Source: Acidobacteriota bacterium
GTDB taxonomy: Bacteria; Acidobacteriota; Vicinamibacteria; Vicinamibacterales; UBA2999
Direction of reading: 5' to 3'
DNA: 44,236 bases
Assembly (NCBI GenBank): GCA_027622905.1
Contig: JAQBVV010000009.1
Coordinates: forward strand, 1 to 44,236
This document shows positions 18,368-23,276 of this stretch, one piece after another. The notes under the pieces were generated by a model that searched no databases, was not told where the DNA came from, and saw only the letters and a list, made by a program, of their open reading frames with translations. The stretch's first letter is position 1. Each line of letters opens with the position of its first letter. A program made the translations under genes and the position numbers.

Positions 18368-18618
18368 CGAGGTGGCGGCAACGGCGGTTGTCGATCGCGC
18401 CGCCGCCTGTGCGTTCGCCCTCTCTTTGCCTTTCCATAACTCCATTGCAGCCAACGGCTTGCGAAAACGATGAGCACCGCACCTGCGTGGCGCCCTGTTT
18501 GCCTTACCTCCAGCGGTCCCGGCGGGTCCGTCGTACACGGCGCCCGACCTCGCCGACCCTCGGATGTGCCGGGGCCGTTTTATGTCATGCACACACGATA
18601 AGAACAGGAGAACACGTC

Positions 18619-18969
18619 ATGAGAATAATGATTGCGGCGATACTCGTGCTCGCACTCGGCGGAACGGCACTTCCGGCACGACAGGGCGGCCAGTCCCCGA
18701 CGGCCAACACCGGCAACGCGGCGACGCCAACGACCGCGGCGCAGGTGAACGTGAATACGGCGACCATGTCCCAGCTGCAGACGCTCCCAGGGATCGGCCC
18801 GGCGACGGCGCAGCGCATCATGGACTACCGGGAGCAGAACGGTGGCTTCACCAGAGTCGAGGAGCTGATGAATGTCCGGGGTATCGGAGAAGTGAGTTTC
18901 CTCAAGCTCAAGGCCCTGGTCTCGGTGACACCCAGCCAGACGGAGCGCGCGGCGACGCAGTCGCGGTAG
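18619..18969 (+). CDS. secreted ComEA-like helix-hairpin-helix DNA-binding protein
   Basis: 116 residues with a cleavable signal peptide (1-20, ending ALPA) and a low-complexity Thr/Ala/Asn linker, then the two helix-hairpin-helix units of the ComEA C-terminal domain: LQTLPGIGPATAQRIMDYR (about 53-71) and LMNVRGIGEVSFLKLK (about 83-98), introduced by the VNVNTAT motif. ComEA binds incoming double-stranded DNA in the periplasm during natural transformation; many bacteria carry extra secreted copies of unproven role. ATG 18619 has an AGGAG site 8 bases upstream. The next gene downstream (119 bases) is a FimT-like pseudopilin, which strengthens a DNA-uptake role. Confidence 0.85.
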   Translation: MRIMIAAILVLALGGTALPARQGGQSPTANTGNAATPTTAAQVNVNTATMSQLQTLPGIGPATAQRIMDYREQNGGFTRVEELMNVRGIGEVSFLKLKALVSVTPSQTERAATQSR

Positions 18970-19088
18970 GCAGCGGAGCTGGACCGGTCACGGGCGTGTG
19001 CTGGTGCCCACGTGCGGGAGCGGACGCCTGTGTGGAAATCAGCACTGGGGGCCGCGGACGTGTCGACGATCCGCGGCCCCGCGCCCAG

Positions 19089-19646
19089 ATGGCTCGCTCG
19101 AACGGGTACGGTCTCATCGAAGTGATGCTCGCGATGGGACTGATCGTCGTGTTGTCGGCGCTGGCGATCCCTTCAGCGCTGGCATCGGTCGACCGCGCAC
19201 GCGCCGCTGCGGCGGCACGCTTTCTGGCGTCGCGGATGGCGATGGCCCGCTCGCACGCGGTCATGCGTGCCGCGTCGGTCGCGCTTCGGTTCGACGAGGA
19301 CGCTGACGGCGTGGCTTTTCAGATGTTCGCCGACGGCAATCGAAACGGGGTGCGCACCAGGGACATCGCCTCGCTCATTGACCAGCAACTGGATCCCTCC
19401 GTGCGCCTGTCGGACCTGTTTCCTGGCGTCGCCATCGCCGCAGCAGGCGGAGCCGGGAGCGACCCGCTGCGCATCGGCTCGGCGAATCTGCTTTCGTTCT
19501 CGCCGCTTGGCACTGCGACGTCCGGGTCGGTCTACGTGCGGGGTCGCGATGGAACGCAGTTCGCGATCCGCATTCTTGGCACAACAGGACGGGTGCGGGT
19601 CGAGCGATACCAGGCGTCTACGAGACGCTGGGTTGACGCGTTCTGA
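19089..19646 (+). CDS. FimT/GspH-type minor pseudopilin with GRxR motif
   Basis: 185 residues with a type IV prepilin signature: short leader MARSNG, cleavage after G6, Y7 in place of the usual Phe, the conserved E11 (fifth residue of the mature protein) and a hydrophobic helix to about 30. The globular part is the GspH/FimT beta fold. Near the C-terminus it has G167-R-V-R170, matching the GRxR motif that in Legionella-type FimT contacts DNA during natural transformation. It is 119 bases downstream of the ComEA-like gene, on the same strand. Alternatively it could be a T2SS GspH component, but no gsp gene is nearby. The ATG at 19089 has no strong ribosome-binding site. Confidence 0.82.
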   Translation: MARSNGYGLIEVMLAMGLIVVLSALAIPSALASVDRARAAAAARFLASRMAMARSHAVMRAASVALRFDEDADGVAFQMFADGNRNGVRTRDIASLIDQQLDPSVRLSDLFPGVAIAAAGGAGSDPLRIGSANLLSFSPLGTATSGSVYVRGRDGTQFAIRILGTTGRVRVERYQASTRRWVDAF

Positions 19647-21621: not shown

Positions 21622-21800
21622 CAGGTTCCCGCGCGATGGCCGGCCACGCCAGGTCCTGAGACGCCACTACCCGCGAGGCGCTGTCGTGCTCCGGAGTTGT
21701 CGGAGCCGATGTCCCGAAACAGGCGGTATTCGGCGCCGCACGGTTGGCATCACCCTTGGGTATCGTTGCGCGTCGGGCGCGTGTCCAACGGGAGGTATCG

Positions 21801-23276
21801 ATGCCGGAGATCGGGAATGCGGAATCGGTTGCGCTGTCTGGAAAGAGCGCGGAGGCGACGGAGGGGGTGCTTGGGCTTCGTGAGGTGGTCGTCGCGCTGG
21901 CCGCGGCGCTCGGGCGTCCCGCCGTCGAGGGCGGTCTCCCCGGGGTCTTCGAACGACAGATCGAACGCCTGCTGACGGTGCGCTCCGTGCGACTGCGCGA
22001 GATTCCCGCACGGTACCAGGCTCGTCTCGTCACTCCCACGCGCACCGCCGAGTCGATCGTCCTTGGGGTGCCAACCGCCGATCCGCGAGTGCAGGCGGTT
22101 CTCGAGGCGACCTTCGAGCGGGACCGTCGGCTGGACGGGGACGACACCGCACTCCTCACAGTGGCAGCAGAACTCGGAGGCCTTGTCCTCGCGGCGGCTC
22201 AAGCGCGAAGCCCGCAGCGGCAGACTCAGGCCGAAGGCGCGGAGCCGCTGATCGGGTCGACGCCTGCCATCGAGGCACTGAAGGACCGCGTTGAGCGCGT
22301 GGCCCGCACTGATTTCACCGTGCTGATCGAGGGAGAGAGCGGCACAGGCAAGGAACTGGTCGCGCGCCAGCTTCACGAGTTGAGTCGGAGGCGCACGGGA
22401 CCGTTCGTGGCGGTGAACTGCGCTGCGGTAGTCGAGACGTTGCTCGAGGCTGAACTGTTCGGCATCGAGGACCGGACGGCCACCGGCGTCAAGGGGCGTC
22501 GTGGCAAGTTCGAGCACGCCGATGGCGGCACGCTGTTTCTGGACGAGGTGTCGGATCTGGCGCCGGCGGCGCAGGCCAAGCTGCTGCGAGCCATACAGGA
22601 CGTCGCCGTGGAGCGGGTGGGTGGCACAGGCACGCGCCGGGTCGATACGCGCATCGTCGTGGCAACCAACCGACCCCTGGCCGACCTCGTCGAACAGGGC
22701 GCGTTTCGTGCGGATCTGTACTACCGACTCAGCGGGGTCGATATTCGGGTGCCGCCGTTGCGGCAGCGGCCTGAGGACATCCCGGCGCTGGCCGCCCACT
22801 TTCTCGACAGGCACCGTGTGACGCGCGACCTCTCGATCTCGGATCCGGCGATGGATGCGCTCTGCCTGCATGACTGGCCGGGCAACGTGCGGGAACTCGA
22901 GCGGTTGATCGAACGCGCCGTGGCGCTGGCGCCTTCGCGTCAGATCCAGCTGTCCGACTTGCCGCCGCGGGTGTGCGGGCGATACGCCGAGGTGCTGGCG
23001 CCATCGGTGAAGGCCCGCGAATCGATGCGCGCCTGGGGGAGCCGCTACGCCAAGCTCATGTTCGAACGGTGCGGCCGGAACAAGCGTGCCACCGCGCGGG
23101 TGCTCGGCCTCAGCTACCACACGCTGGAAGCCTATCTACGCTACGGCAGCGTCAGCCGGACGTCGGCCGCCAAGGTCCCGGACTGGGCGAAAGCCGGGGA
23201 CCAGACTGACCAGACCGACCAGGCTGACCAGGCCGACCAGACTGACGGTCCGACGGATGGTCCCCGGCAGGCGTGA
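21801..23276 (+). CDS. sigma-54 activator-like AAA+ regulator with degenerate GAFTGA loop
   Basis: 491 residues from ATG 21801, chosen for its GGGAGGT site 4 bases upstream (57 bases beyond the longest frame). The N-terminal region (1-140) looks like a GAF-type sensory domain. The AAA+ domain has Walker A GESGTGKE (178-185), Walker B LFLDEV (245-250) and the usual R-fingers. The sigma-54 contact loop, normally GAFTGA, reads RTATGV (225-230), so Gly, Phe and the last Ala are lost. A Fis-type helix-turn-helix follows (about 430-455, NKRATARVLGLSYHTLEAYLRYG). The C-terminus ends in a DQT/DQA repeat encoded by a 9-bp tandem repeat. It may not act on sigma-54 holoenzyme in the usual way. Confidence 0.85.
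   Translation: MPEIGNAESVALSGKSAEATEGVLGLREVVVALAAALGRPAVEGGLPGVFERQIERLLTVRSVRLREIPARYQARLVTPTRTAESIVLGVPTADPRVQAVLEATFERDRRLDGDDTALLTVAAELGGLVLAAAQARSPQRQTQAEGAEPLIGSTPAIEALKDRVERVARTDFTVLIEGESGTGKELVARQLHELSRRRTGPFVAVNCAAVVETLLEAELFGIEDRTATGVKGRRGKFEHADGGTLFLDEVSDLAPAAQAKLLRAIQDVAVERVGGTGTRRVDTRIVVATNRPLADLVEQGAFRADLYYRLSGVDIRVPPLRQRPEDIPALAAHFLDRHRVTRDLSISDPAMDALCLHDWPGNVRELERLIERAVALAPSRQIQLSDLPPRVCGRYAEVLAPSVKARESMRAWGSRYAKLMFERCGRNKRATARVLGLSYHTLEAYLRYGSVSRTSAAKVPDWAKAGDQTDQTDQADQADQTDGPTDGPRQA
23199..23243 (+). repeat. 9-bp tandem repeat in the activator's C-terminal tail
   Basis: Five copies of a 9-base unit of the form GACCAGRCY (GACCAGACT, GACCAGACC, GACCAGGCT, GACCAGGCC, GACCAGACT), encoding alternating Asp-Gln-Thr and Asp-Gln-Ala. 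It merges into a longer dispersed repeat at its 3' end. Confidence 0.85.

Follow-up and report, generated by a model that had tools for sequence, protein, structure and literature searches.

FimT of Legionella, Vibrio, Acinetobacter and Xylella is a DNA-binding minor pilin (PMC8897410, PMC12040237, PMC9956873), and FimT-like DNA-binding pilins have been reported mainly from Gammaproteobacteria (PMC8897410). In L. pneumophila FimT, R146 and R148 of the C-terminal GRxR motif bind DNA (PMC8897410), and in V. cholerae FimT, R154 and K156 are critical (PMC12040237). In FimU, the GRxR motif is partial or not as well defined (PMC8897410), and S. pneumoniae ComGD contains an equivalent motif, yet transformation does not need it (PMC12040237). 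Gram-negative competence systems also have a short periplasmic ComEA, which combines a Sec-type signal with one helix-hairpin-helix (HhH) domain. Acidobacteriota are abundant in soil, and there is little documentation of their ability to undergo natural transformation. In the literature searched, we found no paper tying ComEA to pilins in Acidobacteriota.

Here, we analyzed a locus in the metagenome-assembled genome (MAG) of an uncultured member of the Vicinamibacterales (Acidobacteriota; 3.43 Mb, 239 contigs, 97% complete), in which a comEA-like gene and a prepilin gene lie on the same strand with a gap of 119 bp. The window, the whole stretch of 44,236 nucleotides that was analyzed, is contig C80 of this MAG, and the closest named records to the locus are Acidobacteria and Vicinamibacterales MAGs. 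The first-pass annotation had reported a ComEA-like protein beside a prepilin, and both open reading frames were found where it placed them (Table 1). The parts of the locus are known, and their arrangement is new. Comparative sequence evidence makes a role of the pair in DNA uptake likely, and the reading that we consider reasonably probable is a conserved ComEA–FimT-like DNA-uptake module, in which the pilin would be the DNA-contacting subunit and the module would support transformation.

Table 1. Features of the comEA-pilin locus and the downstream regulator gene (window coordinates)
Feature	Position	Strand	Evidence
comEA Shine-Dalgarno AGGAGA	18606..18611	+	Sequence
comEA-like gene, 116 aa, Sec-type signal and single helix-hairpin-helix domain	18619..18969	+	Pfam/TIGRFAM and PDB matches
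HhH domain, residues 41-100, predicted DNA-binding	18739..18918	+	HHH_3 matched stretch
GspH/FimT-family minor prepilin gene, 185 aa	19089..19646	+	PF12019, 33 bits; AlphaFold2 model
Prepilin leader MARSNG, expected cleavage after Gly6, Glu at +5	19089..19106	+	Sequence
GRVR codons, residues 167-170, start of C-terminal strand 168-175	19587..19598	+	Sequence, AlphaFold2, conservation
bEBP-type AAA+/Fis regulator gene, GAFTGA replaced by RTATGV, start codon uncertain	21744..23276	+	Pfam Sigma54_activat, 202 bits

The ComEA-like protein itself looks like an ordinary short periplasmic ComEA and differs from the known ones in that its gene adjoins a pilin gene. Its N-terminus, MRIMIAAILVLALGGTALPA, reads directly as a hydrophobic Sec-type signal, and two intact HhH hairpins (PGIGP and RGIGE) are present. 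Pfam HHH_3 scored 79 bits on the protein (cut-off 27), the ComEA HhH repeat model TIGR00426 scored 66 bits (cut-off 53), and PDB chains named 'ComE operon protein 1' matched with an E value of 4e-16. The full-length comEA model TIGR01259 reached 83 bits against a cut-off of 152, with the match restricted to positions 49-120; since this model includes the N-terminal region of the Gram-positive form, a short form is expected to miss it. Nearly all orthologues in the order have a strong Shine-Dalgarno sequence ahead of the comEA start codon.

On the prepilin, Pfam GspH (PF12019) scored 33 bits (cut-off 21), TIGR02532 scored 18.9 bits (cut-off 16.3), and Pfam N_methyl matched slightly under its cut-off. 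The N-terminus reads MARSNG^YGLIEVML, and G6 is conserved in at least 90% of the orthologues. Tyr at the +1 position had been taken for a variant residue, but it is not unusual: Tyr is the commonest +1 residue in the pilin family (Y 19, A 10, F 10, T 4, M 3 and V 3 among the order-level ComEA-linked orthologues). AlphaFold2, run on 21 orthologues of the prepilin, gave a model with a pLDDT of 93.5 and a pTM of 0.83, in which beta strands come after a long N-terminal helix (residues 5-60), G167 lies in a turn, and strand 168-175 pairs with the preceding strand 157-163. Among solved structures, the model matched EpsH (Z 12.8), FimU (12.4) and XcpH (12.1), with lower scores for E. coli GspH (10.3) and FimT (8.4), so that FimT is no better a match for the predicted fold than GspH/FimU. 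When a broad pilin alignment was searched as a profile against PDB sequences, nothing came back beyond N-terminal-helix matches and designed-propeller noise.

The Acidobacteriota pilin shares with FimT the GspH/FimT family (PF12019), the type IV prepilin N-terminus and a C-terminal G-[R/K]-x-[R/K]. It differs in belonging to another phylum, in having its gene directly after comEA, whereas fimT is an orphan or part of a minor-pilin operon, in a last strand that is predicted to be ordered with no flexible tail, and in a Thr at the position matching FimT R143.

Pilin orthologues were found in 55 of 59 relatives (E<=0.001). In the order-level set of 55 strong pilin loci, our own included, 53 have a ComEA-type HhH gene immediately upstream of the pilin gene and on the same strand, although in two of these (L033 and L037) ComEA is recognizable as a fragment only; the exceptions are L040, at a contig end, and L010, where the available 0.8 kb contains no ComEA. 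When 247 evenly drawn Acidobacteriota genomes were searched together with our own, 91 genomes had a strong pilin match. Outside the order, ComEA was directly upstream of the pilin in 47 of the 49 loci fetched, from 25 families, the exceptions being L222, at a contig end, and L212, which resembles a minor-pilin operon. Overall, the adjacency was found in 100/104 loci, all of them from Acidobacteriota, and it was also present in 21/21 loci from named records, which partly overlap with the other sets. By these comparisons, the comEA-pilin pair is old and is kept together far beyond chance. It is very improbable that the adjacency reflects inherited synteny with no functional link: the wider region (ligA, htrA, an ntrC-type regulator gene, an epimerase gene and gcvT) is also largely collinear within the order, but the pair persists in the 25 families outside it, where none of the loci fetched had the order's downstream regulator next to the two genes. 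The phylum-wide pair provides a specific locus that can be tested as a marker of DNA uptake.

Other GspH-type pilins are also encoded in Vicinamibacterales, many in operons with PilV/PilW-like prepilins. In a joint tree, 103 ComEA-linked pilins and 26 unlinked GspH-type paralogues split completely (local support 0.80), and relatives often hold both the ComEA-linked and the FimU-like kind. This grouping bears on the proposal that the pilin is an ordinary FimU/GspH-like adaptor for pilus or pseudopilus assembly and that, of the two proteins, ComEA alone binds DNA for uptake, which we consider unlikely though by no means far-fetched. The pilin shares its fold, including a complete C-terminal strand, with the adaptor minor pilins and pseudopilins FimU and GspH/EpsH (Z 10-13), which head the structural matches above FimT; it is the sole PF12019 member over the cut-off in the source genome, which leaves no other adaptor candidate; and some FimU-like members also have GRxR, which may be a trait that comes with the fold's last hairpin. 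On the other hand, no pilV, pilW, pilX or gsp genes lie near the pair, the linked pilins group apart from the FimU-like ones in pilV/pilW-like operons even where relatives have both, and an adaptor role would leave the ComEA linkage unexplained.

The first-pass annotation had likened GRVR to the DNA-binding GRxR motif of Legionella-type FimT. The motif is present exactly at residues 167-170 and fits G-[R/K]-x-[R/K], and its conservation in the alignment indicates that it is no chance string. Residue 168 is R/K in 103/103 ComEA-linked orthologues and residue 170 in 87/103; the pattern including Gly is found in 68/103, and strict GRxR in 61/103. R161 is present in 55 of the 56 linked pilins inside the order and in 26 of 47 beyond, and W181 is nearly invariant among linked pilins.

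As a diagnostic motif, GRxR was rejected. Strict GRxR is also carried by 6 of the 12 full-length FimU-like paralogues in the phylum that are unlinked to comEA, against 61/103 linked pilins (Fisher p=0.55), and TGRxR tails were found on FimU-like pilins without comEA linkage (L138, L141, L143, L062, L230 and L232). The ComGD motif is, moreover, dispensable (PMC12040237). Both basic residues, at the equivalents of 168 and 170, occur in 7/26 unlinked paralogues, and the looser [RK]x[RK] separated linked from full-length unlinked paralogues with a Fisher p of 0.011, although these p-values are indicative only because the sequences are related. Sequence comparison thus indicates that GRxR is at best enriched in ComEA-linked pilins and is not diagnostic, and the motif alone is insufficient to call a DNA-binding pilin.

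The proposed exposure of GRVR is in keeping with the strand geometry, with no sign of burial. Basic residues at 168 and 170 alternate with residues at 169 and 171 that most orthologues keep hydrophobic, so that on a regular strand residues 168 and 170 would face outward. As judged by this alternation rather than by computed exposure, R168 and R170 most likely face solvent, and R161 would lie opposite R170 on the same face, given a regular hairpin register.

Family searches of the source genome for prepilins and machinery found genes for ComEC, PilT, PilB, PilM and two secretins; PilT scored 464 bits, above its cut-off, and PilM was likewise above its own. PilB is split over two frames (G000:C189 10291-12335, L079). 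The ComEC frame (G000:C221 951-2708, L081) ends at 585 aa, compared with mostly 820-890 aa in relatives. The sequence after its stop is unrelated and has no C-terminal nuclease-like motif in any frame, which points either to degeneration of the strain or to a wrong or chimeric contig. The presence of ComEC does not discriminate. In the phylum, ComEC was found in 86 of the 91 genomes with a strong pilin match and in 145 of the 157 without (Fisher p=0.61); since ComEC is near-universal, its co-occurrence with the pair has no power, and we rejected it as support. Among relatives, G048 (99% complete) is without pilin, ComEA, ComEC and PilT together, which favors the DNA-uptake reading, and G057, of the same genus, has ComEC and PilT and neither gene of the pair, which speaks against it. 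The shortened ComEC and the split PilB of the source genome also count against this reading.

Five prepilins were found in the source genome: two PilA-like, two GspG-like (a pair on contig C201, L146) and the ComEA-linked one, with no PilV/W/X tip partners evident among them, a further point against the DNA-uptake reading. The genome also has a T2SS-like cluster, GspD/GspM/PilM-like/GspE/GspF, on contig C5 (G000:C5 1-7732, L078), so that both systems are at hand and their mere company does not decide between competence and secretion. The cluster, the two GspG-like prepilins and a T2SSK score of 28 bits on the HhH of the ComEA-like protein would all suit a pair that belongs to this T2SS-like system, with the pilin as its GspH. 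We find this improbable, because no gsp gene family recurs near the pair in 34 order neighbourhoods, the ComEA-like protein has a Sec-type signal and no prepilin start, the HHH_3 and ComEA models score far above T2SSK, and the GspH model TIGR01708 scored 29 bits on the prepilin against a cut-off of 80. The idea of the pair as a T2SS remnant was rejected, given the absence of gsp neighbours.

In the DNA-uptake module that we favor, comEA and the pilin gene would be co-transcribed, and the prepilin would be processed and incorporated as a minor subunit of a type IV pilus. The basic patch of its C-terminal hairpin (R168 and R170, plus R161 in the order) would touch DNA, and PilT-driven retraction would pull the DNA through the secretin. 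The pilin may then hand the DNA to the secreted HhH ComEA, which would bind the duplex as it enters the periplasm and ratchet it toward ComEC. The compact DNA-uptake locus of the first-pass annotation thus keeps the phylum-wide pairing, the competence and type IV pilus genes and the conserved arginines on its side and loses the GRxR argument; the conserved ComEA linkage is a stronger reason for DNA uptake than the GRxR string. If the DNA-uptake reading is true, FimT-like DNA-binding pilins extend to another phylum.

Of 34 order loci, about 30 encode a bEBP-type AAA+/Fis regulator downstream of the pair and on the same strand; in the window, its gene is separated from the pilin gene by about 2 kb of other genes. 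In most of the order's regulators, the GAFTGA loop reads RTATGV, within a near-invariant GIE(D/E)xTATGV(R/K)GR, and no receiver domain was found in the RTATGV regulator. A separate NtrC-type regulator upstream retains G(S/A)FTGA. The RTATGV regulator was seen beside the comEA-pilin pair across Vicinamibacterales (L083-L096, L148, L149 and others). The bEBPs lacking GAFTGA (the NtrC proteins of Caulobacter and Rhodobacter, and VspR; PMC10274813) are likewise AAA+ regulators that have lost the sigma-54 contact loop, but the change here is a substitution to RTATGV, not a deletion. Activity at sigma-70 promoters is documented for some regulators without GAFTGA (PMC10274813). The idea of a sigma-54 promoter ahead of comEA was rejected, with matches in 2/52 upstream regions and 1.4 expected. 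A regulatory link between the bEBP-type regulator and the pair is a guess. We offer only tentatively, as a possible but somewhat doubtful extension, that the pair is an ancient dedicated DNA-uptake cassette of Acidobacteriota whose two products, a DNA-binding FimT-like pilin and a periplasmic ComEA, would be made together and pass DNA from one to the other, and that in Vicinamibacterales the neighbouring AAA+ regulator without the sigma-54 contact motif would control it.

A separate feature of the pilin family is the loop DGNxNGVRxxDI...D at pilin residues 82-98 (19332-19382), which is nearly invariant across the family and resembles a calcium-binding loop.
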